Positions 1,651 to 43,676 of a stretch of DNA of 64,000 nt are shown here, piece after piece. The DNA is from Ceratodon purpureus (lineage: Eukaryota; Streptophyta; Bryopsida; Pseudoditrichales; Ditrichaceae). The notes beneath the pieces are model-generated. The model ran no database searches. It was not told the origin of the DNA and saw nothing but the letters and a program-made list of their open reading frames with translations. The translations under genes and the position numbers were made by a program. The stretch lies in the NCBI GenBank assembly GCA_014871385.1, contig CM026433.1, forward strand, positions 3,112,474-3,176,473, written 5' to 3'. The stretch's first letter is position 1, and the number at the start of each line of letters is the position of its first letter.

Positions 1651-2310
1651 ATAAAGTGCACTTTAAAAGAAAAAAAATACAATAAAAAGAAGCAAATGAA
1701 AAGTGATTAGTTCATATTAAAAATCAAATATTTCAATAAAAAAAACTAAATGAACAAATAAAAGTGCTTAGTTCCACATTAAAAACCAAACAATACAATT
1801 AATAGAAGCAAATTAAAAAAATAAAAGAACTCCATTTTTATTAAAAAACAAATAACTCAATTATAAGAAGCAAAGTAGTAAATTAAAGAGATTAGTTCAT
1901 ATTAAAAATCAAACGAACAATAAAAAAAAGCAAATGAACAAATAAAAAAGATTAGTTGCACATTAATAAACAAAAAACTCAATTAAAATAATCAAATGAA
2001 GAAATAACTCAACTGGTCGCCCATTAATCTTCAAATAACTCAATTAAAAAGAACAAATGTTATTATAAAAGTAATTAAATCATATTAGAAACAAAATAGC
2101 TGAATTAAAAAAATGAAATGGAAAAGGAATATTCAGACAAACTAAATAAAATAAAAATTATCATTGCATGATCTTTGCAAATTAATCAATTAATAGAAGC
2201 AAATAAAAAAATAAAAGTGATTAATTCATATTAAAAAACAAATGACACTCTAAAATGAGGGAATTGAAAATATAAAATAGATTAATTCATAGAAAGAAAC
2301 AAATGAATCA
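1650..2310. repeat. Degenerate 60-bp tandem array
   Basis: A motif resembling AAAGTGATTAGTTCATATTA followed by AAAAAYCAAA recurs with a spacing of very nearly 60 bp: near 1701, 1761, 1821, 1881, 1941, 2001, 2061 and again near 2211 and 2271. Between copies the words AGAAGCAAATGAACAAAT recur. The array is AT-rich, has no coding potential and its copies differ by roughly 10-30 percent, so it is an old minisatellite or satellite fragment. Confidence 0.7.
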
Positions 2311-2461
2311 ATTACCCAAGTCCAAAAACGAAAAATGGACTGATATCTAAATATGTGATACAAAAGATTAAAAAGCATGGTAGAAAAATGATATTTTAAA
2401 AAATAAGCAACCATTCTTCCAATTCCTGCATTTTACTAAAAGCCCTGGAGGAATTCAAGGA

Positions 2462-2531
2462 ACCATTTACCCTAGATCCTAGAAACCCTATACCCTAGAA
2501 AACCCTAAACCCTAGAAACCCTAGACCCTAC
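2462..2531 (+). repeat. Interstitial telomere-like block
   Basis: Eight or so short blocks of the form CCCTAGAAA, CCCTAAA or CCCTATA follow one another. They are close to the plant telomere repeat CCCTAAA but degenerate. It is either an internal telomeric remnant or a telo-box cluster. Confidence 0.6.
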
Positions 2532-2837
2532 CTCCTTCACCTTAACTTTAAATAAAATGAAAAAAAATCAATTTTGTAAGGTGTAGAGAAAAGAAAAATT
2601 AAAGGCCGAATAAAGACACAAGCAACATAATGAGTGAAGCTGGAACTCTGAAATTAAAATATAGAGTCTTCCTTGACATTTGAGGCAGATTGATTTCATT
2701 TGAGGCAGATTTATTAAAATTTGAAGTTGTATATACGAAAAAAATACACACACAAATTGAATATTTTATAAAAGGGAAGCTTAAAAAATTAAACATAGAA
2801 TTTGCGATCATGTAAACTTTGGACAAAATTATATACA

Positions 2838-2896
2838 TATATATATGATTATAATATATATATATATATGATTATAATATATATATATATATAACA
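2838..2896. repeat. AT dinucleotide microsatellite
   Basis: Two runs of (AT)n are separated by GATTATA; the whole block is almost pure A/T. Confidence 0.8.
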
Positions 2897-4643
2897 CAAT
2901 CAAATATAAACACAATGTCTCCCAAAAGGTTTGAATTACGAAATAATTAATGGAATTGTGTTATTATTTTTTGCAAACAAAAATAAAGGATGAAGTGATT
3001 TTCAGTCAAAATCTAAAATAATCAAAGAGTTATATTCAAAATGAAGGGAGTTTTTATATGAGAATTGGATGTGAAATCAATTTCTAAAATCAAATGTTTT
3101 AAAATCTCAGTGATAATTAATTCATTTAATAGCTGAGGGGGGTTTAGGAACTGCAAATGCGCCAATATCAATATCCACTAGGTACTTAAAAGCAACATTA
3201 AAAAGAAGTACATTTCAGAAACTACTGTGTACGCATGGAGGACATGTTCAGTTGGGACAGAAAGTACAAGTGACGCACATCGACGGCGGGTGAAACGCAT
3301 GAGAAATGGATTCAACGGTACAGATTGTGTCTCTCCCGAGGGGAAGGGTTACGATGCCAGAAGATGGACATTTGCGGCAAGATATGTAGGCAAGACAGGA
3401 TATGTAGGCAAGATGAGATGTCGGGTTTAGGGGTTAGTGCCTGGCTTTCATCAATTCTGTTGTAGCTCGCATGAGGAAATGAACAGCGTAGACTTTGTCT
3501 CTCTCGCGGGAACAATCAGGGTTTTGCATCGACTTCTTGGTAACACTTGACGTCCACAGTTTGCTCCGGTCAATTATGTCTCTTCTGTTTTGTGTGGTGG
3601 TTTTTTTCGCTCTTTCTTTATACAGTTGATTTTGGTTCAGATTTTTAACAATAGCGAGGTTGCATGCAGGGGAGTCGATGCAGGTTCAGCTTCGAAGACT
3701 ATCTAAGTTTCAACGTCATTGTCACGGTCCAAAAGATCACTGATAGTGCAGTTTTTTTGAGTGATATTTAGAGCTTAATTAGATTAAGTAACATCTGAGA
3801 GATACTTAAATTGCAGCTGAGCTCCAGGTCTGTTTTCAGGGGTTTACCAAAACGTCGTAGGGTTAGGATCAGCCTATGAGGGTTATGACTTCGTCGCGTA
3901 AGAGTACTGAGCGGTGTCAGGTTGTTGATATAACAAAGGTTCAAGAAGCGAGGCTCAAGAACACCCAATGTAGAAGAAAGAATCAAGAGTTGGAGAGGAT
4001 TCATCGTGAGGCATCGCAGTCGTTAGCAGCCTCTGTTGATAACGCAGAGTGCCTTCGCGACCTCCTATTGCATAGGGCGGCCACAGCGCATGCAAAGAGA
4101 GTAGCATACCGTCTTTCAGAAGAAACGGCGACGAGGGGCGAAGAATATCAGAGGGTGTTTTTCCAGAAGTTGATTGAGCAGCCAGTTCTTGAAAACGTTG
4201 TTCCAGAGTATGTTTCGAAACGACTTCAATTAGAGCTGTCTAGAGTAGTATGTGACGGACTTGCTGAGGCCTGGTCAGGGCTCAAATATGGGATTGGGAA
4301 GGACAAGTTTCTTGCAAGAAACGTGATTGAAGCAGCAGTAATATCAATTGGCGATGATAGTTGCATGCGCGCCGCTGCTACCTGTGTCGGAATGAACAAG
4401 CGTACTGTTCGACGGGCAATACAACGACGATCTTTGTTAAATGACCGAAGCGACGGAGAGGTGTGGGCAAAGATTTATAGGCGGAAGCGAAAAGATGCCT
4501 TGGAGGAATGCGTGGTGGATTGAGTGATTTCTTGGTGGACAGACGAAACCCGTGTCTCCCCGTGCAAGAAGGACGTTAGAACCAAGAGGACCGGTTACAA
4601 GACAGAAATTTTTCATCCTACACATTGGCTGGAGGAGAGCGAG

Positions 4644-5619
4644 GTAAGTGCCTTCACACTGGAATGATCTGTTTCCTTCAAATTCCCGTTGGTCCGTTAT
4701 TGATCCTATGGGTGGCCTCTGTTGTCCAATTAAGAAACATTGATAAGTCTTGTACGATGAGTGTTGTTCGTTTAAGAGTCATTAAGAAATTCACGGATTA
4801 GAGGTGTAGGTTTACTCCTGATGTTTCTTGAACTACCATCCTGATCGGATTACATCCTTTTAGCTCTCTATCTTAGAAGTCTCTCTGTCTTTTGCCTTAG
4901 AAGTCAGTTACGTATGGATCGTTGCATCTGGGTGTTCCTTTTCCTTTTATAGATAGAGTCCACACAATCTGATCGGGACTCATGAGATGGTCTATGAGAA
5001 GTCCTGGAGTTCTTTGATGATGTAATGTAGTCCTTTGCTCCGTTCCAATTCGGAATCCTTTGTGTGAGTGATTAAAAGTTTAGTAATTGACAAGGTTATA
5101 TTCAGACCAGAAGATTGCTAAGGACTGTCTTAGTTTTGCTAAGGACTGTTTTAGTGCTGCAAAGGACGCTGCGTTTCCGGCAAAGATTAAGACATCTGTT
5201 CCTTTATTAATAGAATCCGTTCCTTTAGGTCAGAGTAAGAATGTGATCCGTAAGGTTCAGAGTCCGTTCCTTTACTTTCAGAGTCCGTCCTTTCAGTTTC
5301 CATAGTGCGTTCCTTTAGTTTCAGATTCCTTTAGTTCTTTTACTTTCACCTTCCATTCCTTTAGTTTCAAATTCCGTTCGTTTAGTTTCAGATTCCTTTA
5401 GTTATTATAGTTTTAGCTTCCGTTCCTTTAGTTTCAAATTCTGTTCCTTTAGTTTCAGATTCCTTTAGCTCCTTTCGTTTCAGCTTCCGTTCCTTTACTT
5501 TCAGCTTCCATTTTCCAGTTTACTCATACACTTCCGTTCCTTTTTTTTTTGGGACATGTTCCGTTCCTAGACTCCGGACCTGAGCATGACTTCTGACTAT
5601 AAGTGAATTGCCTGTGTAG
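4644..5619 (+). other. Intron 1 of the transposase-like gene, carrying a minisatellite
   Basis: Donor GAG|GTAAGT at 4643/4644 and acceptor TGTAG|C at 5619/5620 connect two coding blocks in phase 0. The 3' half holds an array of a pyrimidine-rich unit (see next entry). No coding content was seen. Confidence 0.7.
5100..5560 (+). repeat. TTCCTTTAGTTTCAG minisatellite, copy 1
   Basis: The words TTCCGTTCCTTTAGTTTCAG, AGATTCCTTTAGTT and CAGCTTCCGTTCC alternate about twenty times. The same array, with the same leading segment (GCAAAGATTAAGACATCTG), lies on the opposite strand at 15030-15540. Each unit looks like a polypyrimidine tract ending in AG. Confidence 0.8.
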
Positions 5620-8382
5620 CTTGATTTTTATACGAGATTTCGGGCTGCAAACAGGGACCTCTCTTTATCCTACACCGTCTTCAAACGATTGAAGCCTTTT
5701 TATGTTAAACGACTTACGGACTTCAATAGCTGTTGTTGTAAGTATCATCAGGAAATGCAGGAAATTACTCTCGGTTTTCAGAATATGCGAACAAACAAAG
5801 TCCACATCGAGGCGGGTGAGAGCAGGTGTACCTGTGGTTGTGCAAGTGTATGCACGAATTTTGGCGAATCAACGATGGGGGAAGGCCCGGTAACTTGCCA
5901 GGTGTCTCGTCACAGGTACATTCGAATCTGTGCTCCCTAACATCATTAATTCAGTTTGCTTGAAAATTTGATCATATCTGTTTGTGGAATAAATTGAACC
6001 TGTTATCGATTTTACCGTTTTGTAATCTATCATGTCTTCTGACTAAGTTCGGTGATTGCTAGGTACAAACGGAGCAGCGAACTCTGGGAGCAGAGTTTAT
6101 GTCCCCGGCTACATGGGAGCGAATGGCATGCTAAAAGCTGCCTCAAAGGAGAATGCAGTGAGTGCGGATTTAAGCTAATTCCGTTGTGTGAAAGAGAGGT
6201 AGATCCGGAGAACAAGAGCACAATGACATGGAGATGCTTTGAAATGGTCTCTGCTGGTTCTAAAACAAAAAAGGGTGACCCCAAGCAGGTTATACGACTG
6301 GAGTACAAGGTTACAACACCGAGAGATTTCCTACTGTATGCTGAGCCGAAGATTAAGCAGTTCGTATGGCACCAATTTGTTGCACGTTGGCAAGATTCTA
6401 AGTTTAAGCAATCAGTTCAGGATCTTAAACCAGGTGAACTTCTGAGCCTCATCGATTCCGCCGAGAATTACAGCTACAAGGGGCAGTCCGAAATCCAGAG
6501 CCAGCATTGGTTCTCGTTTCACTTGACAATCCTGGTGCATATCACTTACCGCATCAACGACAACCACAACCCGGAAGACCCGCAATCAAAGAGGTTATCA
6601 ACTGAGTACCACTATTATATAAGTGATGACAGAGTTCATGACTCCCTTTATGTTCAGCATTGTCTTATGTTGCACTGGTCGTCATTAGTTGCTGCAGAAA
6701 GAATTCCTAATCGACACATCGTGTGGAGTGACGGCTGTGCCTCTCAATTCAAGGGAGCAAAGGCTTTCTTCTTTGTTGCCAAGTAAGTCCCTCGTCACGT
6801 TTTGAAAAAGTCTTTGCACGTGCTTGATGAAAGCGGCGTTGTTTGCTTTGCCCTGAATTCGGTGAATTTATTGTGAGTCTTCGAAGGCTGCAAAATGTTT
6901 ATAATTATGTGTTGTTGTGACTTATATTTTGTATGATTCTGTATGTAGTAATTTCTTTGATCATGGTTATTGTTTTTCATTATGTATTGTATGATTATGT
7001 ATGTAGAGTTTTTCTTAGGAGTTCCAGAATCTGAATTTTGATGAAGCAGATCTCCCTCGTATCATTGTTGTCTACATATTTTATGTGTGAGAACCGGCTG
7101 TTTGCTTATGTGTTCTGCGCGGTGCTTGTTTTTTCTCGTCTACTTGAGAGCAAGTTTTTTTGGTGCAAGTACTGTTTATTGATTGCTTTGCGGTTTGGAT
7201 GAAAGAGGAAGCTGAAATGGAATCTGTGACGTAGAGTTTTGAGAATCAGACTGTCTGTAGGTTTACGGTGTGTGTTTTCCTTTGTTGAGTTTAGCAAGTT
7301 ACAACGGAAACATCGAAGCAAGTTGAGTTGATATGTGACATGTGACATGCAGATACCCCAGCTTGACAGTGTCAGACAACTTGCCCACTGGTTGCAAGCT
7401 CGACTGGAACTACTGGGGGACTGGTCAAGGGAAGGGTCTCCACGACGGGGCAGGAGCATGCGTGAAACGAGCTCTTCGAAAAGAACAACTGAAGGAAGAT
7501 AGCGTCAAGCTTCATAATGCAACAGACGTAGTCTCCTTTCTGCGGGTAGAAATGAACTTACCGCATGCAGCCTACCCGAATGCGAAACAACATGTTGTTA
7601 GACATTTCCACCTAATAGGTCTATCTGACGTTCCCCGGGATAAGCCTTTAGCGTGTCAAACAGTGCCGGGAAGTAGAAGTTTGCATTCAATCAGATCAGT
7701 TTCGCACACCAATAATGTGCTCCTCGAGTGCAGGGATTTCTGCTGTTTCTGCTCTGCATGTGGTCGGGGCGAAACTGGAGTGTGTGCCAACGCTGCTCAT
7801 GTACGTCCTTGGGAGCTTGTGACGCTACAACCTCTTTCTAGCGACGACGCAGTGCAAGAGTCTGAGGATCCCGACCCTAGCTGGATTGTTGAGACGGGCG
7901 ATAACGTACTAGCGCAGGAGTGTCAGGTGGGAGATCATTTCGCAATAGTCGCTGATCCAAATAATTTAGATGAACCCGGGGAAGAGTTTTATGTTCTGCA
8001 ATGCACCAAGTCTATGTATGTGCATCGAGGTCCGTCTACCAGGGATGCGTGGAACTCTGTGATTGACGACGGAGACGAGGTTTTAGAGGGGTACTATTAC
8101 CGCCTTCGAGGTAGACGACCGAATTCCTATGTTTTTTTGAGAGAAGCCGGGGTTGCTCGTGTGTACTCCCATCTCGTATGCGCTACTAAGTTCACTATGA
8201 CCCAGGCTCCGCACAGGCAAAAGGGTAACGAGACTGTCTTTCAGCTCAGTGACAGCACCTTGGAACACATCCAGGAAGTTCTGATGAGACGTCGTGAACA
8301 AGAGGACCTCGCTACAGAAGAAGACGAGGAACATGATGAAGTAGACAGTAGCGAGGACTCTGAGAGCGATTTTGATGAGTAA

Positions 8383-8888
8383 GTGATTGAACATACATTG
8401 TCTAGTTTGAACATCTGAGTGCTTGCCTACGTACCTAGGGTCTAACTCTTATTGTCATTGCAAGCGTAGTTGTAAGTATGTTCACTTTTGTTTTGTGGAT
8501 CTGCTGCTATTGCAAACTCTTTTGAAAACGCGACTCTACTAATGTCATTGATATTTTGGGTGAAATCTGGTTTATGTTGTTGAGGTGCTGTTTGATCTTG
8601 GTTTTTGCACATTATTTCCCAGTTTTACAGCTGTGTGTCTCGATTGGACGAGTGAGCCGTACATGTTTCACTCATTTTTTGTTGTATTAATCTTGCTTTT
8701 ATGGATGCCGTGTATTAATTTTATGTCAAAATCTAAGTGATCAGAGGCAACAAGCCAAGTCAAATTATTCTCTCTTACCCAGTCTCGTACCCAGTCCTTA
8801 CCTCGTAGCAGAATCGCCCCCAACGCAAACACCGTTTTTGTGATTAATTTTATATGAAATCTGATCTAAGTTTCCAATGAAAGATGAC
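8383..8888. other. Gene-less spacer
   Basis: 3' flank of the transposase-like gene. No coding or structural signal was recognised before the small-RNA-like unit begins. Confidence 0.5.
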
Positions 8889-8955
8889 GATAAGGGTTCC
8901 CCTGATTAGTCAAATAAGTGTTCACTACTAGTCAAAGTGGACAATGGCGGGAGTT

Positions 8956-9149
8956 ATCCCATATCGTTTGGCATTGCACCTCTAGTTTGATATAAATACT
9001 ATCACCGGGTTACTTACTCCCAGTTGACAGCCTGAACGGGTTGGTGATCAGAGGCTCTGATGGTTTGGGGCTGCCGTGGCAACCTCCGGGTGCTTGTGCC
9101 GGGCCCCAAACCACCCCCTGACATCCACCCTGCCACGCTACTTTTTTTG
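8956..9149 (+). ncRNA. Candidate Pol III small RNA, copy 1 (with promoter)
   Basis: An upstream-sequence-element match ATCCCATATCG (8956-8966; plant snRNA consensus RTCCCACATCG) is followed after 24 bp by TATAAATA (8991-8998). In plants a spacing of about three helical turns is the Pol III class of snRNA-type promoter. A start near 9022 would give an RNA of about 120 nt ending at the T-run 9142-9149. The RNA region has an 11-bp perfect stem (TGGTTTGGGGC with GCCCCAAACCA), and GGGT..GG..TCAG near the 5' end can pair with CTGA..CC.ACCC near the 3' end. It does not match U1-U6, U3, 7SL, RNase P/MRP or telomerase RNA as I know them. The identity is unknown. Confidence 0.6.
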
Positions 9150-9169
9150 AATTTTTTCATAATTTTTGA

Positions 9170-9368
9170 TATTCTTTCATGAATGGTCCTCTGCAAGATT
9201 CTCATTCTCACCCAATTTCTATTTGTGATTCAGTTGTGTTTCATAGTTTTCTATGTTCTTTCATTAATGGTCATCTGCAAGATTCTCATTCTTACCCAAT
9301 TTCTTTTTGTGATTCAGTTGTGTTTCAGCAGTTCGTGTTTGTGATTCATTTGTGTTTCAGCAGTTCGT
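9170..9368 (+). repeat. Short tandem duplication, about 75-bp unit
   Basis: The segment CTTTCATGAATGGTCCTCTG ... TTGTGTTTCA occurs twice and is followed by two partial units ending TTTCAGCAGTTCGTG. A related piece (TTTTATGAATGGCCATCTGC) follows the third small-RNA unit near 12843, so this is part of the duplicated unit's 3' flank. Confidence 0.65.
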
Positions 9369-9614
9369 GAAGGGAAATGTCTACACTACTCTCTGCATGA
9401 ACAGGTTTACATTCATATCAGAATTTTCTCCATATCAGAATATCTTTAATGTGCACACTGCACACACGATTCTACAGGTGACAATTTAATTGATAAACTC
9501 GACTTATTCTGCAGGTGGATGGTAATGAAATATTTTACAAATATTACGATAAGAGTTCCCCTGATTGGTCAAATAAGTGTTCACTACTAGTCAAACTGGT
9601 GCATTGCGGGAGTT

Positions 9615-9807
9615 ATCCCATACTGTTTGGCATTGCACCTCTGTTCTAATATAAATACTCTCACGCGGTTGAGTACTTCTAGTTAACAGCCTGAACGGGT
9701 TGGTGATCAGAGGCTCCGATGGTTTGGGGCTGCCGTGGCAACCTCTGGGTGCTTGTGCCGGGCCCCAAACCACCCCCTGACACCCACCCTACCACGCTAC
9801 TTTTTTG
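9615..9807 (+). ncRNA. Candidate Pol III small RNA, copy 2
   Basis: It has the same architecture as the 8956 unit: a weaker USE ATCCCATACTG (9615-9625), 24 bp, TATAAATA (9650-9657), then an RNA region nearly identical to copy 1 from ACAGCCTGAACGGG to CCACGCTAC and a T-run at about 9802-9807. The 11-bp stem is preserved. Homology extends upstream of the USE (TTCCCCTGATTGGTCAAATA), so a unit of about 270 bp was duplicated. Confidence 0.55.
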
Positions 9808-10703
9808 AATTTTTTCAGAACAGATATTTCATATCACAAGAGCGATAAAATACATTCATAGTGATTTACTTCGGCGACTAGAATCGAAGATAATCCCAGT
9901 TCAATGTAAAATGTGGAGAATGTATTTTAACAGAACTGATTGCAGCAAGTTGAGTTGATACTATTGACTCAATCCACACAACTGAGTTATCTATTTCTAA
10001 TTTTTGGTGTCAAATGATAGCTGCGGTTGGAATAAATCTTTCACTGGTTCGCCTGTTTCCACATCTTGAATTGATGACATTTAAATGTTGAACATCACAC
10101 TACAATGTTTTAACGCAAGTGACATCTTCACGAAATAGATCCTCATCGTGTGCCTCCAAAGCTCACGAATCCATATAAATCCTAAACCATAATCCGAAAG
10201 AACAGTTATTCCGCCCCTGGAAGTCTCGATGCTCACACGATCTCTATCATAGTTTCTAGATTATAGGTCTGGACAGACCACGTCTAGTTCTAGAGATGAA
10301 CAGTGAACTAGCCAGAATTCAACTCGACAATCTAGTTCCAGAGATGTCTAGGCTGTAGGGTTCTAGATCAAGTAATTGCCATGACCTATTAATCATATTG
10401 TCTCAAGAGGAGTAATTGGTGTCTCAGTACTTAAGCTTCTAGTCTGTCAATTCCAAGTTGTGTCTTGGGAGTGAATTATGTCCCCGGCAATGAGTGAATT
10501 ATTATTTAACTCTTAGGACATCTAATCGAAATGAACTTAGCAACGTTCAGACACAGTACGAGTGCCTCGCCACGTGAAACTGCTTCCTACTGTAGACGTC
10601 CAGGGCAGCTTCATCAGGTGGGGCGCAGAGTCTCTAAGCACCGGAGCTTGGAAGTAGTTGTAAGTCTAGGATCTCGAGGAGCTGGAGGGACTGTGTTAGA
10701 GTG
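9808..10703. other. Gene-less spacer
   Basis: No supportable gene. GC content rises near 10560-10700, just before the start codon of the next gene, consistent with a 5' UTR or promoter, but no TATA element was placed with confidence. Confidence 0.4.
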
Positions 10704-12217
10704 ATGGCAGAACCTGGAGGGAAGGGAAAGGAGATGGCAGGAGTAGTTGGGAAGGGGAAGGAGCAACAGAGAGACGAGGAGGGGAACGGGGCTGAAACCT
10801 CGGACGGAGTGAAAACTGAGCTCCGTCTTGTTGGAGACTACGAGCAGGGAGATCTAGAAGTTTGGAAGGGGTCGGCAGAGAGAAGAGGAGGGGAGTACCA
10901 ACTGCTTAGAGATGCACCAACTAACCTACCTTGCTTGCATTGGTGGCTGAAGACGATGGCAGAGTTCGTTGTCGTCACCGGGCTGGAGGTTCCCAAGCAT
11001 GACAAAGTCCAGGAGATGCCGTCCGCAAGTTGGCGAGGTGCTTGGAAGATGAAGGCGTTGCTGCAGTTCCAAGCGGTGGCGCATGCCACAGGCATAATGC
11101 ATCCACCGCGACCGCGACGACAGGGACCTCAGCAAACTTGTGGGGAGCAGCGCGAAAATCAACACCTGGGAAGCATCAGGTAAGTACCTGTACCTGTGCA
11201 CTTTCTTAGAATAGTCTGAAAGCTTGGCTGCTGTTGTAGAACTTGTAGCCTGCAGGATTGCATCATGGGGGGACTCTTACGGTACAGTTTTGACTCTGAT
11301 ATGCGGTATCATTATTTTAGTAAATCACTTGTCACGTAAGCAAGGCCTTGCAGCCATCGCGGTGGTGGAGTACAACTTCCTCATCGAAATGGTCCTCGAC
11401 ATCCTTCTAGCTTACTGTGGGTTGTAATTTCAGTGTCTAGACTAGTTTCAGAGTTTCGAGTTACCAAAGAACTTGCGGGTTCTTTTAATTGATTAATTCC
11501 GGGTTCTCATCGTCTGCTGTTAGAGTAGGATCTTATGTAGTGCGAATCTTTAAATATCTATGCCCAAATTGGTCGGTTGTCTTTCATGTTGGTCTTTCTG
11601 TTTTCACCATCTTGAAATAATTGTGATCTCAGCCAAGTCGTCGGGAGCAACGAACCTGCATCGCCTGGAAAGCTTGTCGCACAGGCTGTCAAACAGCCAT
11701 CAACCGGGAAGGAGGTCGCGGGAGCATCGGGTGGGGTGCAGGTCGAAGGAGCATCAGACGCGCCAGTGCCATCCCGTGGGAGTCCAACGGAACTACGACC
11801 AGTTCTAGCACTACCGGCGGTTGTCCGAAAGAGAACCACCGCTCGTCGCCGTCAATCTACTGTAGGCGCCGCTGGAATGGCAAACACTCCGAACCTGGCG
11901 GGTTGGTGCCGGGCATGCAAAGCAAGGTACCGTGACGGACACATTCTCCATTGCCCATACTCCGCCCACGCGCCGCAGACTGCCCCAAGCGAAGTTGTAC
12001 CTGTGATAGATCTGTCTTCCATTCCGAGCTCGGACGATTCGGACGACTTCGACACACTGGCTGAAATGGCGGCACTTGATTTCCTCAAGAACTCTAAAGG
12101 TATGTATGTAATCACTAACTGCATGTTTAATTTCAGTTCATTTGATACTTGGTACCATTTTTCAAGATGTAACAACACATGTGGTGATATGTCGCAGGAA
12201 AAAAAGACAACAAATAG
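10704..12217 (+). CDS. Hypothetical 320-aa protein with small zinc motif and SUMO-interacting-type motif
   Basis: Exons 10704-11179, 11633-12099 and 12198-12217 join in frame (963 nt) through a GTAAGT and a GTATGT donor. The first 30 residues are Gly/Lys/Glu rich. Near residues 251-271 lies WCRACKARYRDGHILHC followed by PYSAH, a compact Cys/His cluster that could bind one zinc. Residues 281-287 read VPVIDLS and are followed by SSDDSDDFD, which is the hydrophobic core plus acidic tail of a SUMO-interacting motif. I do not recognise the family. GC-rich exons in an AT-rich setting support real coding. It sits between small-RNA copies 2 and 3 and next to the RING-like genes on the other strand. 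The final exon is only 20 nt, so the 3' end is the least certain part. Confidence 0.5.
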
Positions 12218-12624
12218 TCGTGATTGCGGGATTTCTGACTTACGGTGTGCAAGCTCGAAGAATGTAAAACGAACGTGAATATTCAAAACCGAGGGAATAT
12301 TCAAAACGAACGTGAATTTTGTTAGGATGTAAAACACGAAGAATGGTCTACCGCAGTAGCAGGTCCTGAAGAAATCCGACAGTCACTTGGAAAGGGAGAA
12401 ATCATGATACCTTGCTCGGTACGTAATTTTAGAGATGAAACGTGCCTTTTGTCTTTGCTGTGCACCTTGTTAAATCTGTCACGAGGATCATCGTACAAAA
12501 CTCTGCCTTAATTCCGAAAGAAACAAAAACTCTGCCGCGTCCACGGTGTTACTGTAAACATGGTCTCTGACGAACTACAGTACAGTACAGTTTTTGTAAG
12601 TGAAACTGGTCCATGGCGGGACTT
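12218..12624. other. Gene-less spacer
   Basis: 3' flank of the preceding gene. It contains short direct repeats (GAATATTCAAAAC twice near 12277-12310; ACAGTACAGTACAG near 12579). Confidence 0.4.
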
Positions 12625-12816
12625 ATCCCATATCGTTTGGCATTGCACCTTTGGTCTGATATAAATACTCTCACCGGGAAACTCTCCGCCAAATGACAGC
12701 CTGAATGGGTCGGTGATCAGAGGCTGCTATTGTCTGGGGGGACACGTGGCAACCCGGTGCTTGTGTTAGGCCCCAAACTACCCTCAGACACCCACCCCGC
12801 CACGCTACTTTTGCAC
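12625..12816 (+). ncRNA. Candidate Pol III small RNA, copy 3 (diverged)
   Basis: USE ATCCCATATCG (12625-12635), 24 bp, TATAAATA (12660-12667), then ACAGCCTGAATGGGTCGGTG and a transcript-like region ending CCACGCTACTTTT. The USE, TATA and their spacing are conserved exactly, while the long stem has substitutions (TGTCTGGGGGG opposite GGCCCCAAACTA), so this copy is either a different isoform or decaying. Confidence 0.5.
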
Positions 12817-12829
12817 TTTTTTACATTGG

Positions 12830-13710
12830 CATTTTTTCTTCTTTTATGAATGGCCATCTGCAAGTTCAAGGACCAGTCTTAGGCCATGTATGAAATTGTA
12901 GAATAGTCGTGAATACATTCCAAACTATTCAAATGAATAAGACAATTCCAAACTATTCAAATGAATAAGACAACTCAGTGGCAACTGATGCACCGGTTCT
13001 CTGAATCCATAACCTTCGAATTCAAGATACCAACACACTCACAGACCAGGACAAATTCAATAATACCTTCCCGAATTAAAAAAAAACACGTTCACAAATA
13101 AAACAAAAAAATTAAAACTGTCTCACCTCCAGATGCCAAGCACCACTCACAACAACTTAATAGAAAATGTGACCATTCAAATTTCAACTAAGAATTTAGA
13201 ATACAACAAAATGCTCGCTACTCATCCCAGCTTGTTAATAGCCTCACCAGCAAAAACACCGAAAGAGGCTAAGTTCATCAGAAATCAAATTTACACAGTA
13301 CACTCTCCAGAAGCAGACAGCTTGCGCCTTTGCCTCCAAACTCACTAACGGCCTGTTCCATAACGGAGTACCGAACAGCAGAATCTTACGTTTCACAATT
13401 TCCCCAGATGCGAATTACCCAGATATGCACACTAATAAACATTCGACGCATTCCTCATTCCTCCACGACCAAATGCAACGCCATCACACTCTAGCCCTTC
13501 GTGATGTTCTCACGATCTCCTACATACAACCAACCGACCCTCACAAACCCTCACAATCTCATGCAAATTGAGCCTAAGAATGTACAATATCAACCAAAGC
13601 TCTTTGAAAACCACATAGACAAGGGGCAGTACTAAACCATATAAACCAATACTGTTTAGTGAGCCATAATCCACCTTCACCAAAAATGGAACCTATACAA
13701 AGCATCGAAA
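12830..13710. other. Gene-less AT-rich stretch
   Basis: No gene was supported. A 27-bp unit containing CCAAACTATTCAAATGAATA is tandemly duplicated near 12919-12974. Confidence 0.45.
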
Positions 13711-14469
13711 CTACTCTCTAAATTTTGCAGGGACAGTCAAACGTTGTGAATTGCCCCGCGTCGCTCCTGTGCGCAGTCGTTTAACTGTGCAATTCAAAGT
13801 TGGTTGAGCATCCTTCTCCTTGCCCTTGCTGTCGAGATCAGCTAGTGGTGCTGCAACTAAAATCTCCGTTAGTGGCCGTTCCATCAGCCGGGTATGATTT
13901 AAAGTATCTACGTCCAGTGATCTTCGCCCACGTCGCTTCTTGGATAATGCAATCACAGGCCGACTGGACTCCAATTCTACGTCAGCAACCGCGGGCTCCT
14001 CAGTGGCCATCGTCCTCGTAGCACGGCGAATGAAAGTTTTTGTCGGTGAAGGAGGTCGATCTTCAGTCCTCTCTGGAGTTTCCGCTACTGCTACTTCATC
14101 GATTTCCAAGCTAGGCATCTCCTTTGCATGCGAATTCTCACCTCCCTCTAAGCGTACGCTATCATTAGCAACTGTGCTTCCTAGTACTGTTCGCACCCCC
14201 CCCTGAGAGAACAGATCGTCAGAGCACCATTCGACAAGTCCTGCTTGATTGTCGTCGTCGTCGCTTTCGCTGGCGTCCAGATGATCTACTACATCCTCAG
14301 CAGGTGGAAAGAGCGACGGGTTGGATTTATGTGACGTCACAACCCATCCTGCAATCTTCGTTGTGCATATCGGGCAATTCTCCAAACCGGAGATGCACTT
14401 AAAGCAGAAATTATCGTGTCCACATGCCTGTTCAAGACATTTGCACATCCAGAACTTAAAGACGGTCAC
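13711..14469 (-). CDS. RING-like zinc-finger exon (3' part of a gene)
   Basis: An open frame of 252 codons ends at a TAG at 13711. It begins FWMCKCLEQACGHDNFCFKC and continues to NCPICTTKI, the second half of a RING-type zinc finger (Cys-Gly-His, FCxxC, CPxC). The first Cys pair would lie in an upstream exon. Downstream are an acidic stretch (SESDDDDNQ) and a Ser/Lys/Arg-rich tail with KKRRGRRS, a possible nuclear signal. RING fingers of this kind usually mark E3 ubiquitin ligases, which is an inference here. The 5' border is probably an acceptor near 14476 (GTTAG|C); the phase relation to the upstream exon was not resolved. Confidence 0.5.
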   Translation of the reverse strand: MTVFKFWMCKCLEQACGHDNFCFKCISGLENCPICTTKIAGWVVTSHKSNPSLFPPAEDVVDHLDASESDDDDNQAGLVEWCSDDLFSQGGVRTVLGSTVANDSVRLEGGENSHAKEMPSLEIDEVAVAETPERTEDRPPSPTKTFIRRATRTMATEEPAVADVELESSRPVIALSKKRRGRRSLDVDTLNHTRLMERPLTEILVAAPLADLDSKGKEKDAQPTLNCTVKRLRTGATRGNSQRLTVPAKFRE

Positions 14470-14589
14470 ATTGCTAACTTTAAAACGATAACATTACATA
14501 TAAACCAAACCATACAAAATATTGCTAATTGAACTAGTGGATAAGGATGGTGAGATGTAGAAAAAGCAAAATGCAGAAGCTGGCTTACC

Positions 14590-14996
14590 GTGAGTGACAA
14601 TGACGATGCTTTGGTCTTGTACATGCTGCAAAGTTTGCCTGTACTTCCATCTGCCGCATGTGTCTTCCCTGAAATGCGAGTGCTTACACTGGACTGCGAT
14701 TGATTGAAGCCGCCTTGTGGTGCCTTGTCCAGCTCCGAAAATGAACGTGGACCACAACTATCAGTACCTGCGAGATTAGTGACATGTTCTGGCTGTGGTG
14801 ATCTTCTTCTGGCTGATATATGGATCGTATTCTCCTCCCTCCTCTGAAAAGACTCGCTTGAGGGCTCCGAATCTTGGGCGGTGGATGCTGAAGTGCTTGG
14901 CGTTGCACACTGAAAGACCAATGCTGGTCGAGAAATCTCCGGACCTCGCAGCTCTGATCCAGTTCCTGCAAGGACCACAAGATTGGTGATTCTCAA
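14590..14996 (-). CDS. Possible upstream exon(s) of the RING-like gene
   Basis: A Ser-rich open frame precedes a donor CTCACG|GTAAGC near 14589. A second donor-like site (CTCGCAG|GTACTG) lies near 14772, so the stretch may hold two exons. None of the three frames joined the RING exon cleanly in the expected phase, so this is weakly supported coding. Confidence 0.25.
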
Positions 14997-15029
14997 TCCA
15001 TGCCCAAGGAACGGAATTTGAAACTCAGG

Positions 15030-15540
15030 AGAAAGTGAAGCCCAAACACTGTATGGAAGGAACGGACTCTGTTTTTAAAGGAATCTTAAACTAAAGGAAA
15101 AGAATTTGAAACTAAAGGAACGGAAGCTGAAACTAAAAGAACTAAAGGGATCTGAAACTAAAGGAACGGAAGCTGAAACTAAAAGAACTAAAGGGATCTG
15201 AAACTAAAGGAACGAAATTTGAAACTAAAGGAACGAAATTTGAAACTAAAGGAACGGAAGCTGAAACAAAAGGAGCTAAAGGAATCTGAAACTAAAGGAA
15301 TGGAATTTTAAACTAAAGGAATGGAAGCTGAAAATAAAAGAACTAAAGGAATCTGAAACTAAAGGAACGCACTATGGAAACTAAAAGAACGGACTCTGAA
15401 ACTAAAGGAACGGACTCAAAAACTTAAGGATCAGATTCTTAATCTAATCAGAAGGAACGGACTCTAATAATAAAGGAACAGATGTCTTAATCTTTGCCTG
15501 GGCCAGGAACGGACTTAGAATGCCCAATCACAGACCCTGA
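15030..15540 (-). repeat. TTCCTTTAGTTTCAG minisatellite, copy 2 (inverted)
   Basis: On the plus strand this reads GAAACTAAAGGAACGGAAGC, repeated with variants such as AGAACTAAAGGGATCTGAAA. The reverse complement matches the array at 5100-5560, including the leading block GCAAAGATTAAGACATCTG. It lies between minus-strand coding blocks, so in the direction of transcription it has the same orientation as copy 1 has in its intron. Confidence 0.8.
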
Positions 15541-16400
15541 ATCTCAAGGAACAGAACCTCAAATAAAAGGAACAGACTCTGAATGACCTGGACTGACTTT
15601 ATAAACCGGACTCCAAGCGTTCCTTTACTGAGTAATACAGAGAGAGCAGGACAACGGTGAGAGCAAACGAGGATCACAAGGAACGGAAAGACAAATTATA
15701 TACACAAGGTACACAAACAAAGGCACCTTAGTACACAAAGAAACTGACAAGGACTTAGCGCGGAATTAAGAAAGCTAACCGTGGACTCTCGGAAAGCCAC
15801 GACCACCAATGTCTGAAGTAGATCCTTTAATAATCAAGTCCTGAAATTGCCCTGCAAGACGGACAATTGCTGAGTCCTCAAGCTCTACATCAAAATTACG
15901 GACACCAGGCCTCTAGTCCCCCTGCGATTGATTAGTTTGTAATCCGTTACCAGCCTGAAAGGAAACCTCTGTACAAATTCAGACCAACACGGATAAACCC
16001 TTTGTGCAACAGTAACATGGAAAAGACCCTAAACAACGATCGGCCTAATGCCGCAAAACTTCAAACAGTGATCAAGAGACAATTCGCAATTTCATAATGA
16101 GCAACGTATTAAATCAAAAAACTAAAGATCAACCACCTAAACTACAGGAACCTCATCGAAGTTAAAGAAATCCTAAAACAAACCATTGCACGTGACCAAG
16201 AAACCCCCCAGGGCGATCCACATACCCACAAGCCAACCAACGGACTCATCCATTTATTCAAGAATTCAAACAGACTCAAAAACAGCAAAAGAACACCAAT
16301 AGCATTAACGATCAGGACCAACTAAAATAAATGACAACAAGGAATTTTTGTAAGCATCAAATGACAAAGAAGACCAAGAACAAGGAGTCCAAATGCTCAC
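15541..16400. other. Gene-less stretch between minus-strand coding blocks
   Basis: No coding signal was seen. It may be intronic if the 16401-17814 and 13711-14996 blocks belong to one transcript. Confidence 0.35.
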
Positions 16401-17814
16401 CTGCGGTTCTCGACTTTTTTCCTTCACCGTCTGCTGTGTCTTCGACCTTGATGTCGTAAGTCAGGTCGCCAATGGGCTTCGGGATGCAGATACCAATCGA
16501 GATAATGCTGTCTGCGGAAAACTCTTCCCTACAGTCCTGAAAGCAGCAAAGTGAACTTGTACTTGCATGTTGAGCTAAACAGAATCCATGATAAGTGTGT
16601 CCACAGCCTAAGGGGACAAAGTTGTTGCAACTAAACCAATACCCGCAAACAGGGCAGGCGTTGATGACGTGAACTTTAGAGAAGGGTTTTCAACTGGATT
16701 GTTTCCAAGGGGTCTTGGAAAGAAAGCCAATCCTGTCCCCTCGCTCATCTTCTTCGACTGGTCTTGCATGCCGATGAGTAGGCGTTCGAGACTAGAAACC
16801 CTACTCTGGACATTCTCTTGTCTCAACAAACTCTCACACAAGCGCGTTTCAACCGATCCCAATTCCTCCCGACATCCAGCAACTATGGTCCTGCAGTGAG
16901 CGGTTGATTTCGACTTGAAGGCTATGGACAGTGAGAGGTCTTCAAGGGACGAGCTTCCTTCACTACTCCCTCCCTCACTATTCAACTCCGTGTCTTGAAC
17001 CTTGGATTGAAGGAGTGTATGCCTATGGTTCAAGTTCGACAACTCCCGCTCCTCCTCTTCTAACATTACAACCCTATCTGATAACATAATCTTGGCCCTT
17101 CTCGACTGACCCTCTAATCCCTGGACTTCAACTAATCGCTCTTCCAGCTCCACTCGACACTCGGCTAACAACCTCTCGGTGCTTTCAATGACTCCGGATA
17201 TGGCGTCTAGGTCATTCGGCACCCAACCAGGACCAACATCAGACTGCTTCCCTCTATGGGCTTTTAGCTTCGGACTGACCACCTTCTTCCCCATCGCACA
17301 CCCGTCCTGAACCTCTGCTTTGAGGGTGAGCTTTACTACAGCCGGCAACGGCTCTTCCTTGCGAACCCCAGCCTGCAGCCGTTTCTTGCCGAACACTTGG
17401 ACTCCTCCAAGACCCTCACCAACCTTTCCACTCGATAGTTTCAGCTTCCGTTCTCTCAATTGCTCTCGATACCTCTGCCTTCTTACAGCAAACTCAGGGC
17501 TCCCAATTCACGGGCTGAGTCTGTTGCATAATGAGACCCCTTGCGAATTGCAAGGAAATTTCCTTGTTAGGCATATGAGTGTCATCATACACTTTTGTCC
17601 AGAGACTGTAGATAGCAGCGGCCTCTTCTGGAGTGCTGCGCTTACAATACTTCCAGCCCGATTTGGAAGCCTTAGGCCCAAAATATTGTGATACTAAAGA
17701 CTCTGGAACTTGATCTCGAATCTCGTCGACTATCAGACCAGAGGAGGGGAGAATATCACTAAATTTAACGAGAAGAGGATCGACGCTCAAGGACTTCGCA
17801 GCAGAACCCTCCAT
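16401..17814 (-). pseudogene. Coiled-coil plus RING-like zinc-finger protein, two frameshifts
   Basis: Start at 17814 (MEGSAAKSL). The N-terminal part carries GWKYCKRSTPEEAAAIYSLW and MPNKEISLQFARGL, then a long Glu/Leu/Arg-rich coiled-coil region, then a zinc finger: CPVCGYWF, CGHTYHGFCLAQH, CCFQDC. It ends at a donor ACCGCAG|GTGAGC at 16401/16400. Coding changes frame twice. Near 17500, NWEP meets a TGA, but removing one base gives PEFAVRRQRYREQL. Near 16690, ENP must shift to FSKVHVINACPVC. No intron fits either point. I recall similar N-terminal and CGHTYH modules from repetitive moss or liverwort proteins of unknown function. It is most likely a decayed copy of a multi-gene or element-borne family; sequencing errors are the alternative. 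Confidence 0.6.
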
Positions 17815-18400
17815 CTACAAATCAATGACAACATAGGGTACAATCTCAGGGTACACATTGTCGCAGCAAATGACGCAACACGGAATCAGCAACTCAGAAA
17901 TTGAATCAGCAACTCAGAAATTCCTTGCTCAAGAAGCACTCGCTAAAAATCCAAAGAACAGATAAATTCGCAGAGAACCCTCGCTCAAAAGCACCCGCAG
18001 AAAACCCTAAGAGCAGAAACCCTTGCTGAAAAAACCATGCAAGAAACACAAGCCATGCAAGAAACACACTTGAACAGAGTGACTCACCCTGATCAAGATC
18101 AAGATCCGCGCAGTAATTGAAGATGCGAGTACAAGCGTGGCAGAAGCTGAAAAGATGGAGATTGAAGGAAGGTTCTCACGGAAAAGAATTTTTATGCCAG
18201 AAATTGGCGGGGATCGATTTGAGTGGGCCAGATCACCAAGAAGGGCGCGAGATATGGGCGCCAGATCAGACACTTCCCGCCGTCGTCCATGTCCGGATAC
18301 GGACTACACTGAGGTGGCAAGAAATTTGAGTCGCAGAGAAATACCCCATTCGCTTCCCTGTCCGGAGCTCCTTTCTGTCCGGGGCGGGGTACCTTGAATG
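17815..18400. other. Gene-less stretch, GC-rich toward 18.4 kb
   Basis: 5' flank of the minus-strand gene. Short direct repeats occur (CTTGCT and AAGAAACAC words near 17930-18070). Nothing else was recognised. Confidence 0.4.
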
Positions 18401-18548
18401 TAGGAAATTGTAGACATACTCAAAAAATGATTTTTTTTTGGGATGGCTTTGCACTAGCTTTGCACTTCATCCAAAAATTATAAAAAAATTCCACCACTAT
18501 TCCAAATGAGCAAACCTGAAATTCGGACGGTTTCTGGGACCACTACCT
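18401..18548 (-). mobile_element. Truncated copy of the AGGTAGTGGTCCC MITE
   Basis: The reverse complement is almost identical over about 148 bp to 43304-43450, starting AGGTAGTGGTCCCAGAAACC right after a TA. The other terminus is missing. High identity between the two copies implies recent movement. Confidence 0.75.
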
Positions 18549-20325
18549 TAACTCCAGACTAATTTCACACACCAAGCACTTCCCCCCTTACCGTACAAAA
18601 GTACGAACCTATCAGATTTTTACCTTTTCAAAAAGACGTCAAAAAGGAAAAGGAGAGGAGGAAGAGAACCGCTTCGATGATAATCCAAGTCAAGTATTAA
18701 GTTGCATTCATGGTACTGTATTCAGAATTCAGGCCGTGCGAATCCATATGTGCCAGCCGCTGATCACCTCGCTAAATACATATCGCACTCTTGTCCGAGC
18801 CGGTTCATGATCCACTCGTCTGACCAACTGCGTTAAGCGCGCGTGGAGCATCAGTTTCGAAGGACCGAGAACGTGAGGATGGTGGGATAATTGATTACAG
18901 CCCTTCACCTTGCAGTCCTTCAATATGATCATGATCAAGAGGGAAATCAATATCTGAACGGATGAGATTACTCAAACTCTGCACCATTGGAGAGTCTTGT
19001 CTGAAACGGGTACTAGTGATCCATTATCTGATCCATCTCAAGGTCGTGCTCGATCAACCCGCCGGGCCTTGCTAAGTTGCTAGTAAAGAGCAGGTGAGCC
19101 TTTCAACTAGGGCGGTTGCCATGATCAGCGGTGTATAGGACCGCGAGAGGCGAGGCTTCGTTCCGTGGGAACAAGCCTGCACAACTCACAGGAAGATGAA
19201 CAAACAAGTTGGAAATGTGTAACAGATGCACAATAATGCAAAACTGTGGTGGCATTTTGTTGAGAGGAAGAATGGGCTTCATCCTGGATCATCGGGCTAA
19301 TGGGCATGGATATTTGTTCGGAGAGAGGAGGGACCAGCTTTATCACGAAATTGTTGAACTAAGTGTAAAGTTCTAGGTGTGAAGGCCTAAGTGTATTTAG
19401 GCCTGTATGTGAAAGGGAGAATCAAATCTCAGGGGACTTATGTACGGTGAATCCAAGCTCTCAAACATTGTCCTCAATCGCAGATCTCCAAACCTGGCTC
19501 ATGTCTTCTACAACAGCAGAAGAGGCAGGAATATCAGAGATGTTGGGGAGAAGAAGCTCTGGTGTACATTGTAAGGAAGGTTAGGATGGTGGAGGCATTC
19601 ATAGATACAAGTAATTATGAATCCCATTAAGTAAATTCATTATGGACCAGTTGAGAGATTGGGCTTTGATCCACATAGATATGAATAGAGAGGAGGCGTG
19701 CCACTTCTGAGATACAAAACAGAAGGAGTTCGAGAGAAAATTCGAAATCTGGTGATTCATGTGGACCTCATTGAGACAAGATGGAAAAAGGCATTAATTC
19801 AAAACTGCTTTGTAAATTGGAAAGATCCTTAAAACTGATCAAGAACCAAGAAAGAAGAAACCTTATTTGGAGCATATGGCATATTAAAGCCATTGTAGTG
19901 AATGATTGGAGAAACAGAGCCCTCCAACCCCTCATTTTCCTCTCGCCCTGCACTTACATTGCATTTGGACATACCAGAAAGCTTTAAGGACAAGAAATAG
20001 ACCTCGGAACTACTGCACGATCTCCGTCAGAAACACGGTAACTTCACGGAAAGAAACGAGAGAATTTTTGACAATCAAATAGGCTCATTTGAGAAAACCA
20101 CAGAGAGAATTTGGATTGGCTTGTACAGGATTATGCCAGGATCGCCTGGAGAAAGGTTTTGAAGGAAACTCCTGTGGAAGTTTGCAACCCAATATGCCTG
20201 GTAGTGCCCGAGTATATGTAGACGAGCTGATCTTAGGACTCTTCAGTACTGCTGAACTCAATTTGAAGTTAAGGTGTCTGTGCACGAATTACGTGCTTGT
20301 TGAGGTGTTCGCTCAATCTGCTACA
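18549..20325. other. Gene-less intergenic stretch
   Basis: No family-supported coding was found. The part nearest 20326 is the promoter and 5' UTR of the polyamine oxidase gene; the frame upstream of its ATG stays open but has no coding features. Confidence 0.45.
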
Positions 20326-23300: not shown

Positions 23301-23738
23301 ACTTGCAAGGTATGTCAGTATTGAATATGTTCTCAATGTTCAGCAGTAAATGGCTTAATTGTTACACGGGAAACATTTCGTGTTTATCACTTTGGGGTCA
23401 AGTAGCCTGGAACATCATTGCATGCATGGTTCTGTTCCTACCTAAAGTTCATATTAAAGGTTTTAAAATAGAAAGAAAACAGTCTCTTGCTCGATAGTGC
23501 ATCTTTGGATGAGAAAGGGTGGGCAAAGAAAGTAATGTACCTGCCGCTGTAATTTGATGTGCTGTTTCATTGTTGTTCAGGAATTGTCACGGCAAACGAA
23601 CTACTTGATTGCATGTTCAAGCGCAAGTGCTCCAAGCCAAACTCGGCTTATGAAAGTGTTGTTGCCAATGCTCACACTGAAACTGAGCTTTTGAGACAGA
23701 TGAAGAAAAACACGAGGACCCCTGATGCAGCCCGCTAA
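20326..23738 (+). CDS. PAO: Polyamine oxidase, secreted type, 520 aa, ten exons
   Basis: FAD-dependent oxidation of polyamines (spermidine/spermine) with release of hydrogen peroxide, by family the apoplastic back- or terminal-catabolism enzymes of plants. Exons: 20326-20455, 20696-20945, 21101-21244, 21377-21444, 21618-21799, 22049-22192, 22396-22545, 22828-23082, 23228-23309, 23581-23738. All are GT-AG with consistent phases; total 1563 nt. Residues 1-24 are a hydrophobic signal peptide ([18 protein letters not shown]). The dinucleotide-binding motif [10 protein letters not shown] is at about 35-44. EARxxIGGRM and KGANWIEG follow, and the C-terminal FAD motif [20 protein letters not shown] is intact. 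Length fits maize-type PAO (about 500 aa). I chose ATG 20326 because it opens the signal peptide. Intron 7 carries a duplicated insertion (see 22565-22780). Confidence 0.93.
22565..22780 (+). repeat. Direct repeat inside PAO intron 7
   Basis: The sequence GGCTAACGTCTCAAAAACTT with CCTGTG occurs near 22579 and again, with two changes, near 22748, about 170 bp apart. GGGGCTAA and TTAGCCCC words between them can pair. It looks like an old small insertion in the intron. Confidence 0.5.
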
Positions 23739-43125: not shown

Positions 43126-43303
43126 TATAATACTCTCTCCATGCAAGTGTTGTGACTCTTGTGAGAATAAAGCTCCTTTTTTCATTTTCAACTTTAAAAA
43201 GTGCAAGGATGTGGAGTGGACTATGTCTGGCAAGTTGCAACCATCTGAGTCTTGAGCCTCCATGTCTGTGATTAATCCTTATTCTAGAAATTGAAGATTG
43301 TTA

Positions 43304-43676
43304 AGGTAGTGGTCCCAGAAACCGTCCGAATTTCAGGTTTGCTCATTTGGAATAGTGGTGGAATTTTTTTATAATTTTTGGATGAAGTGCAAAGCTAGTG
43401 CAAAGCCATCCCAAAAAAAAATCATTTTTTGAGTAAGTCTACAATTTCCTATGAATTTTTGAATGTTCAGCCCTAGGTGCTCCACTAACCGTCCCTAGAG
43501 TCATGGTTAATATGACGACTTGGATTCTGAGAATAGAACGTTTCTGCACCAATCACAAGCACTCAATTTCTGCAGCCATAGACGGAATTAGAATGATTTT
43601 GCACAGTTTCAGGAACAGCCTATGTCAAGCCTATGGGACGGTTTTTGGGCCGGGACGGTTTTTGGGCGCACTACCT
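43304..43676. mobile_element. TA-target MITE, 373 bp, AGGTAGTG ends
   Basis: Ends AGGTAGTGGTCCCAGAAACC and (reverse) AGGTAGTGCGCCCAAAAACC, both continuing CGTCC, with TA on each side (43302-43303, 43677-43678). A truncated near-identical copy lies at 18401-18548, and a diverged relative at about 56655-56830. Confidence 0.8.

Follow-up and report, generated by a model that had tools for sequence, protein, structure and literature searches.

Introduction

By the general view, a eukaryotic DNA transposon requires nothing beyond proteins and its terminal DNA. The TnpB and Fanzor systems include an omega RNA, a non-coding RNA that is encoded by the transposon and conserved with it. Among viruses, the VA RNA of adenovirus and EBER are short, rod-like RNA polymerase III (Pol III) transcripts with internal box A/B promoters. 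To our knowledge, no counterpart has been described for a mobile-element RNA class such as the one considered here, and no transposon with a Pol III RNA of its own was found in the literature searched, an earlier description in the Ceratodon genome paper being possible. Here we analyzed a 64,000-nucleotide stretch (the window; C13:3112474-3176473) of the 362.5-Mb Ceratodon purpureus assembly, which was also the genome searched. The window holds three units in which a putative Pol III promoter precedes a foldable body and a run of T. The units are probably genes for a structured RNA of roughly 120–150 nt that belongs to a family of large DNA transposons.

Plant type-3 Pol III genes combine an upstream sequence element (USE), a TATA box and a T-run terminator, as described in PMC6765143 and PMC12133305. 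In plant Pol III genes of the small nuclear RNA (snRNA) type the USE lies one helical turn nearer the TATA box than in the Pol II ones, according to PMC9845283.

Results

Three promoter–RNA–terminator units in the window

An earlier note on this DNA had described three promoter–RNA–terminator units starting at window positions 8956, 9615 and 12625, and all three were borne out (coordinates in Table 1). The USE that the note had quoted for every unit, ATCCCATATCG, is that of copies 1 and 3; copy 2 instead reads ATCCCATACTG, with two mismatches to it. The TATA box, TATAAATA, starts exactly 24 bp after the USE in 3/3 copies, as had been claimed, and the terminator T-runs were located 151, 151 and 149 bp past the first T of TATA in copies 1, 2 and 3, in agreement with the distance of about 150 bp given before. 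The body between TATA and T-run is GC-rich in all three units. When compared with the sequence RTCCCACATCG, the USE showed one mismatch in copies 1 and 3 and three in copy 2. The USE, the spacing of about 23–24 bp and the T-run terminator are those of plant type-3 Pol III genes, so that the sequence supports the Pol III class of plant snRNA-type promoter geometry assigned previously. In tested dicot U6 promoters single changes at later USE positions abolished activity (PMC12268498); the copy 2 promoter may therefore be weak. The exact canonical USE, GTCCCACATCG, followed by TATAWATA 22–26 bp on had 0 matches in the genome.

With up to two mismatches allowed, the window holds 14 occurrences of the USE alone where 12.1 are expected, a number reached by 35 of 100 shuffles. 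A loose USE-plus-TATA scan of the window returned 15 rows, six of which were the three copies, and 20 Markov simulations gave 1–12 rows. Promoter boxes by themselves are weak evidence; the weight lies in the preservation of the complete arrangement among homologous copies. Between copies 1 and 2, 4/115 sites differ within the RNA (9027-9141), compared with 19/92 over positions 8930-9021 (Fisher P = 1e-4). Only the three copies matched in an nhmmer search of the window, with no fourth copy.

A dispersed RNA family that keeps its promoter and terminator

The units had been taken for a three-copy family, presumably of host genes. This was not supported: the family numbers hundreds and is at least largely carried by a dispersed DNA element. 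A 24-nt apical motif of the RNA, with up to three mismatches, had 241 matches in the genome, 61 of them exact, and the reversed control had 0; BLASTN with copy 1 returned 40 scored matches among 160 candidates. Twenty stretches of 9.9 kb around RNA copies were read; they had been selected for the highest DNA similarity, which biases them to the window's clade. Together with the window they yielded 59 matches to a profile that contained the promoter, 58 of them full copies, with 1–5 RNA genes per 9.9-kb locus. A T-run of T4 or more was present in 58/58 copies at +144 to +180 (the first TTTT was sought from 131 bp past TATA). The USE–TATA spacing was 24 bp in 56/58, the other two having 22 bp (ambiguous TATATATA) and 23 bp (a one-base deletion in the USE). 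In 20/58 copies the USE was AACCCATACTG, with four mismatches to RTCCCACATCG. Eight further copies picked by the RNA motif alone were inspected by eye: a USE-like box was seen in 8/8, the TATA box stood at exactly 24 bp in 6/8, at 23 bp in one and was degenerate in one, and a T-run of at least four was present in 7/8, with none in locus L056 within the stretch.

Genome-wide copies lacking the promoter and T-run, the outcome that would have spoken against the earlier note, were thus not seen. The null explanation of that note, an ordinary dispersed repeat without function, would accommodate the 241 motif matches, but promoter spacing, T-run and base pairs persist even where the flanks of the copies have diverged beyond alignment, and we find it scarcely credible.

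Some RNA copies form opposite-orientation pairs about 11.7 kb apart (C2:8490833/8502578, C5:4746221/4757966 and C7:808161/819897); these perhaps represent a further family of young elements, in which both ends have an RNA gene close by.

Compensatory changes in the RNA stems

The three bodies, each folded alone, gave similar rod-like hairpins (z = –2.4, –2.8 and –0.4 for copies 1, 2 and 3), in line with the foldable body noted before, although the fold of copy 3 alone is not significant. The check for stem covariation that the earlier note had put forward failed on the three window copies and succeeded on a larger set. For the window copies alone covariation was not significant (172/500 shuffles reached it). 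Random placement of their substitutions gave few broken pairs at P = 0.018, but at 0.20 given the number of paired sites hit.

Two larger alignments were made. Alignment A4 comprised 22 of 27 dereplicated copies, leaving out one indel row and four copy-3-like rows, which MAFFT placed one base out of register. Alignment A7 (28 rows) added to these six of the eight motif-chosen copies, leaving out L054 (insertion) and a second L053 copy (identical). Window copy 3 is one of the four copy-3-like rows and is absent from both A4 and A7. In A7, two-sided changes were found in 12/34 modelled pairs, and 94.1% of cells pair. The 58 two-sided cells compare with 17.9 in shuffles, 0/500 shuffles reached 58, and slid partner controls gave at most 5; these shuffle counts are not probabilities, the alignment rows being related. 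Columns 48/86 are A-U and G-C in 14 rows each, columns 17/114 are C-G and U-A in 12 rows each, and within the otherwise conserved apical helix A-U changes to C-G at columns 62/71 in four rows. The basal and apical register of A7 was refined after the subfamilies had been seen, so its structure leans towards the data; with the earlier basal register, A4 gave 6 pairs and 20 two-sided cells vs 6.3 in shuffles, a smaller excess that is still above shuffles. This pattern suggests that the shape of the RNA is guarded by evolution and that the transposon may need the RNA for some function.

The most conserved stretch is the apical hairpin, CGUGGCAACCUCCGGGUGCUUGUG, and the stem arms change by compensation. 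Both features bear on the idea that the transcript is a microRNA or small interfering RNA (siRNA) precursor directed against transcripts of the host or of rival transposons. Its long, near-continuous stem would suit such a precursor, but there the conserved part should be a 21-nt arm rather than the apical hairpin, and arms that drift by compensation make this very unlikely. A further alternative places the function in the DNA, with the USE/TATA blocks acting in cis as SNAPc/TBP sites, an insulator or a transposase docking site and the RNA a by-product. A role of this kind would be compatible with the presence of more than one copy in an element, in some cases as inverted copies separated by about 11.7 kb; covariation of RNA pairs, in which G-U cells occur on the sense strand, points to folding of an RNA, and we hold the DNA-level alternative to be highly improbable.

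Some diverged copies, from loci L046, L048, L049 and L052-L057, have a possible second small 3′ hairpin that was not seen in the window copies. Its loop is near AGTTGAA, like the RNA's own 5′ start AGTTRAAGCC, and it folds in some diverged copies only.

Linkage to a candidate transposase and probable selection on the RNA

The element in the window has a candidate transposase gene, whose exon E3 had 119 scored relatives among 1076 candidates in the genome. A coiled-coil-like gene (CC) is convergent with it, as is the RING-like gene. For linkage, the E3 list comprised the 74/119 places of at least 45% identity (four genes as two fragments each), and the CC list 83/96 matches, 13 second fragments being out. 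CC was found within 15 kb of 54/74 E3 places, in convergent orientation in 53/54, an arrangement that defines a large element family. The RNA list comprised 113 places (100 of the 241 motif matches and 13 further ones; 128 of the 241 are unlisted). For 62/113 of them an E3 or CC on the lists is no more than 15 kb away, and 54 of these are near E3, compared with a chance expectation of about 1% of RNA places near one of the 119 E3 places.

E3 of locus L035 and that of the window are separated by a dS of 1.35 (dN/dS 0.107), with synonymous sites near saturation, and their RNA cores differ at 7/113 positions. When the window was compared with loci L046, L047 and L049 by BLASTN, nothing but the RNA genes matched over at least 100 bp (E <= 1e-10), and transposase, RING or CC proteins are still recognisable in these loci. 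We are confident that the units represent a transposon-borne RNA gene family under selection, and it is very probable that the RNA is a Pol III product of the transposon that is selected and acts in trans.

Observations that weigh against this explanation

Several observations count against the explanation above. In 3/3 copies the more stable fold is that of the antisense strand of the body, and folding energy therefore does not indicate the strand. The profile that found the 58 copies favours promoter-bearing ones, since it contained the promoter. Gene conversion could help keep RNA copies alike; it counts less because the TATA-to-start spacer of copies 1 and 2 diverges (8/23 sites) while the RNA differs at 4/115, and it would not by itself make matched double changes. 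Linkage is also incomplete: 51/113 listed RNA places have no listed E3 (at least 45% identity) or CC within 15 kb, and some of them may stand alone or belong to elements that have decayed or are of another kind. Some of these places are repeated units: C2:2754250 and C11:4458685 share 99% identity, and at both a further copy lies at a distance of about 2.7 kb. Decayed or differently equipped elements are therefore likely. Furthermore, an RNA among the 100 of 241 listed was found within 15 kb of E3 at 21/30 places of at least 60% E3 identity to the window, at 2/44 of 44–59% and at 0/45 below 44%, and the 13 further RNA places add two E3 loci of 51%. Most of the distant transposases are therefore without detected RNA among those listed, which speaks against every element carrying the RNA; diverged RNAs may escape the 24-nt motif.

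The RNA places distant from any listed element protein are also what would be expected had the transposon captured from the host a Pol III RNA gene that is not known from other sources and kept it as a passenger or as a mimic of the host RNA; the promoter, too, is of host type. Against this, no Rfam family fits, places without E3 or CC are in part themselves repeated, and a passenger is not expected to stay alike past near-saturated synonymous sites. We judge capture to be quite unlikely.

Known RNA classes

The body had been said to match no plant RNA known to the note's author, which the searches upheld: none of 4227 Rfam families matched at gathering score in the window, and at permissive E all matches stayed far under that score, the best of them (E 0.069) being to the opposite strand. 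U6, U3, 7SL, MRP, telomerase RNA and other Rfam families were accordingly rejected, no covariance model fitting. ARAGORN detected no tRNA in the window, and no telomerase-type template such as CTAAACCCT was seen by eye in the three bodies. H/ACA and C/D small nucleolar RNAs were rejected as well, as neither an ACA box three bases before the 3′ terminus nor stem-closing C and D boxes were seen; by eye, the 3′ ends consist of CACGCTAC followed by the T-run, and CTGA near the 3′ end is absent from copy 3. An external promoter is lost on retroposition. A retroposed short interspersed element (SINE) was rejected, the copies bringing USE and TATA upstream of the start, and promoter-bearing copies thus arose at the DNA level. 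SINEs are named among USE-bearing genes in PMC12133305. Exact-pattern scans of prokaryote and viral contigs gave 0 matches, as expected for plant sequence, and a literature text search with a body fragment gave 0 matches.

The carrier element and its surroundings

Seven loci (L031-L037) on six contigs, two of them on C8, share one common element with 4–5 RNA genes each. In the two pairs measured, L035 is identical to L031 at 99.66% over 9,399 bp and to L037 at 99.59% over 9,860 bp, and the candidate transposase exons were stop-free in 7/7 loci for E2 and in 6/7 for E3. Such recently dispersed, near-identical copies with apparently intact coding exons are as expected of a cut-and-paste DNA transposon, which the carrier probably is. 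Translated searches (tblastn) detected at least one element protein in 20/20 of the 9.9-kb loci and relatives of the RING-like gene in 17/20. In the window, pieces of L051 and L044 align over 2276-12150 and pieces of L041 over 6029-15576, in the same gene order, and L050 aligns with 15741-18210 at 92–95%. The polyamine oxidase gene to the right implies that host DNA follows there.

No Pfam transposase matched E1-E3; apart from the RING match, element open reading frames (ORFs) gave E > 0.02, and a PDB sequence search with E2 and E3 gave nothing under E 0.7. Motifs that might belong to a DDE triad of an RNase H fold were read in the candidate transposase by eye only, and an AlphaFold model of E3 was discarded (predicted local distance difference test score 32). 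At the FAENY-type motif of E2 the window reads SAENY and the other four rows FAENY. In gene G, VPVIDLSS is presumably a SUMO-interaction-like motif; together with the RING-like neighbour it hints at SUMO/ubiquitin manipulation. CACTA-type elements have subterminal repeats, which the two inverted 21/67-bp arrays of the window resemble; the arrays bracket E1-E3, the RNA genes, gene G and the RING gene.

Window positions 10301-12837, with gene G and RNA copy 3, are 93–94% identical to the young L035, and the adjacent transposase exons are 74–76% identical in DNA. Element families seem, from such patchworks, to exchange modules. The likeness of copy 3 to L035 was not used as evidence, this segment having probably been exchanged recently. 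A 152-bp repeat (18401-18552 and 43300-43451, 99% identical, inverted) has one copy close to where the element presumably ends on the right, the other being 25 kb away, and positions 49721-50320 hold a fragment of a piggyBac-type DDE_Tnp_1_7 transposase.

Table 1. Features of the window (positions in the 64,000-nucleotide stretch).
Feature	Positions	Strand	Remarks
USE copy 1	8956-8966	+	ATCCCATATCG
TATA copy 1	8991-8998	+	24 bp past USE
RNA body copy 1	9022-9148	+	T7 at 9142-9148; 5′ end inferred from TATA distance
USE copy 2	9615-9625	+	ATCCCATACTG, two changes; possibly weakened
TATA copy 2	9650-9657	+	
RNA body copy 2	9681-9806	+	T6 at 9801-9806
USE copy 3	12625-12635	+	
TATA copy 3	12660-12667	+	
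RNA body copy 3	12691-12812	+	T4 at 12809-12812; T6 next at 12817-12822
Dispersed DNA element, minimum extent	2276-18210	.	Left end before 2276; right end between 18210 and polyamine oxidase gene
Candidate transposase N-terminal exon	3867-4523	+	97% identical in L051; 45% with 2 stops in L046
Tandem repeat array, subterminal-type	5179-5520	+	Inverted relative to 15076-15583
Candidate transposase exon E1	5599-5919	+	
Candidate transposase exon E2	6061-6790	+	FAENY-type and SDG motifs
Candidate transposase exon E3	7351-8367	+	dN/dS about 0.1 to L035 clade; 119 scored genome relatives
Element gene G, two exons	10638-12278	+	Cys-rich motif and VPVIDLSS
RING-like zinc-finger gene	13711-14493	-	Pfam zf-C3HC4_3 E 0.003, under its cut-off
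Inverted partner array of 5179-5520	15076-15583	-	
Coiled-coil-like gene CC	16608-17507	-	Convergent with transposase; 96 genome matches
Plant polyamine oxidase gene	20400-23349		Start about 20400 by eye; fragment matches PDB 1b37 and 3kpf

Discussion

We propose that host SNAPc and Pol III would transcribe the RNA wherever the element lands, with no need of a neighbouring promoter; that the units give rise to real Pol III transcripts is very likely. The rod would serve as a scaffold whose sequence is free to drift while pairing holds, and the apical hairpin would be the surface that a protein recognises. This protein would most likely be encoded by the element or else be a silencing or RNA-binding factor of the host. 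The resulting ribonucleoprotein (RNP) would aid persistence or movement of the element. A protein-binding RNA fits best because the stems compensate, the apical hairpin is conserved and no variable guide was seen, and we give action through such an RNP an even chance. That the partner is encoded by the element, rather than being a host target, is somewhat doubtful. More tentatively, this eukaryotic DNA transposon lineage may encode a Pol III RNA of its own that acts in trans and is essential to it, such as a subunit of a transposition or anti-silencing RNP.

The main rival is a silencing decoy, in which a Pol III hairpin, made in abundance, sequesters a factor of the host that acts in silencing or binds double-stranded RNA and so lets the transposon escape siRNA silencing. 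Adenovirus VA RNA acts as such a decoy in animals. The RNA considered here is rod-like and mostly double-stranded, has an independent promoter, is present in 1–5 copies per locus and sits in a transposon, as a decoy might. A generic Dicer decoy, however, needs no conserved apical sequence, and the exactness of 61/241 motif matches over 24 nt leads us to consider the decoy unlikely.

If the explanation as a transposon RNA is correct, an RNA component is added to the life cycle of eukaryotic DNA transposons, and this would be, as far as the literature searched shows, the first such transposon RNA with an snRNA-type promoter. RNA genes of this kind could explain the orphan USE/TATA loci of moss genomes. 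A direct test is possible, as the RNA can be deleted, compensated or used as protein bait.

The units resemble plant type-3 Pol III genes (U6, U3, 7SL, MRP and telomerase RNA) in USE/TATA spacing and T-run, but their body matches none of these in Rfam, and they are present in many copies that ride on DNA transposons. Dada transposons likewise link a DNA transposon family with small RNA genes; they insert into host U6, U1 and tRNA genes (PMC3706591). Here, in contrast, the RNA genes are inside the element, and no U6, U1 or tRNA model matched. Lanisha is reportedly a DNA transposon lineage described from Ceratodon. PMC12730594 describes it as EnSpm-like, with a transposase that has C(2)C and H(3-4)H motifs. 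By these descriptions, the two possibly share a host and may each be a new DNA transposon lineage; in E3, CxxC was seen by eye, with no clear H(3-4)H.

Like VA RNA and EBER, with which sequence was compared through Rfam only, the present RNA would be a genetic parasite's own short Pol III transcript with a rod-like fold; its promoter is external. Pfam gave no match to a RuvC/OrfB-type domain in the ORFs scanned, which are a part of the element's total. The omega RNA of TnpB and Fanzor offers the other parallel: it is likewise a non-coding RNA encoded by, and conserved with, a DNA transposon, whereas in the RNA described here no variable guide segment was seen and expression would be driven by an snRNA-type promoter of its own.

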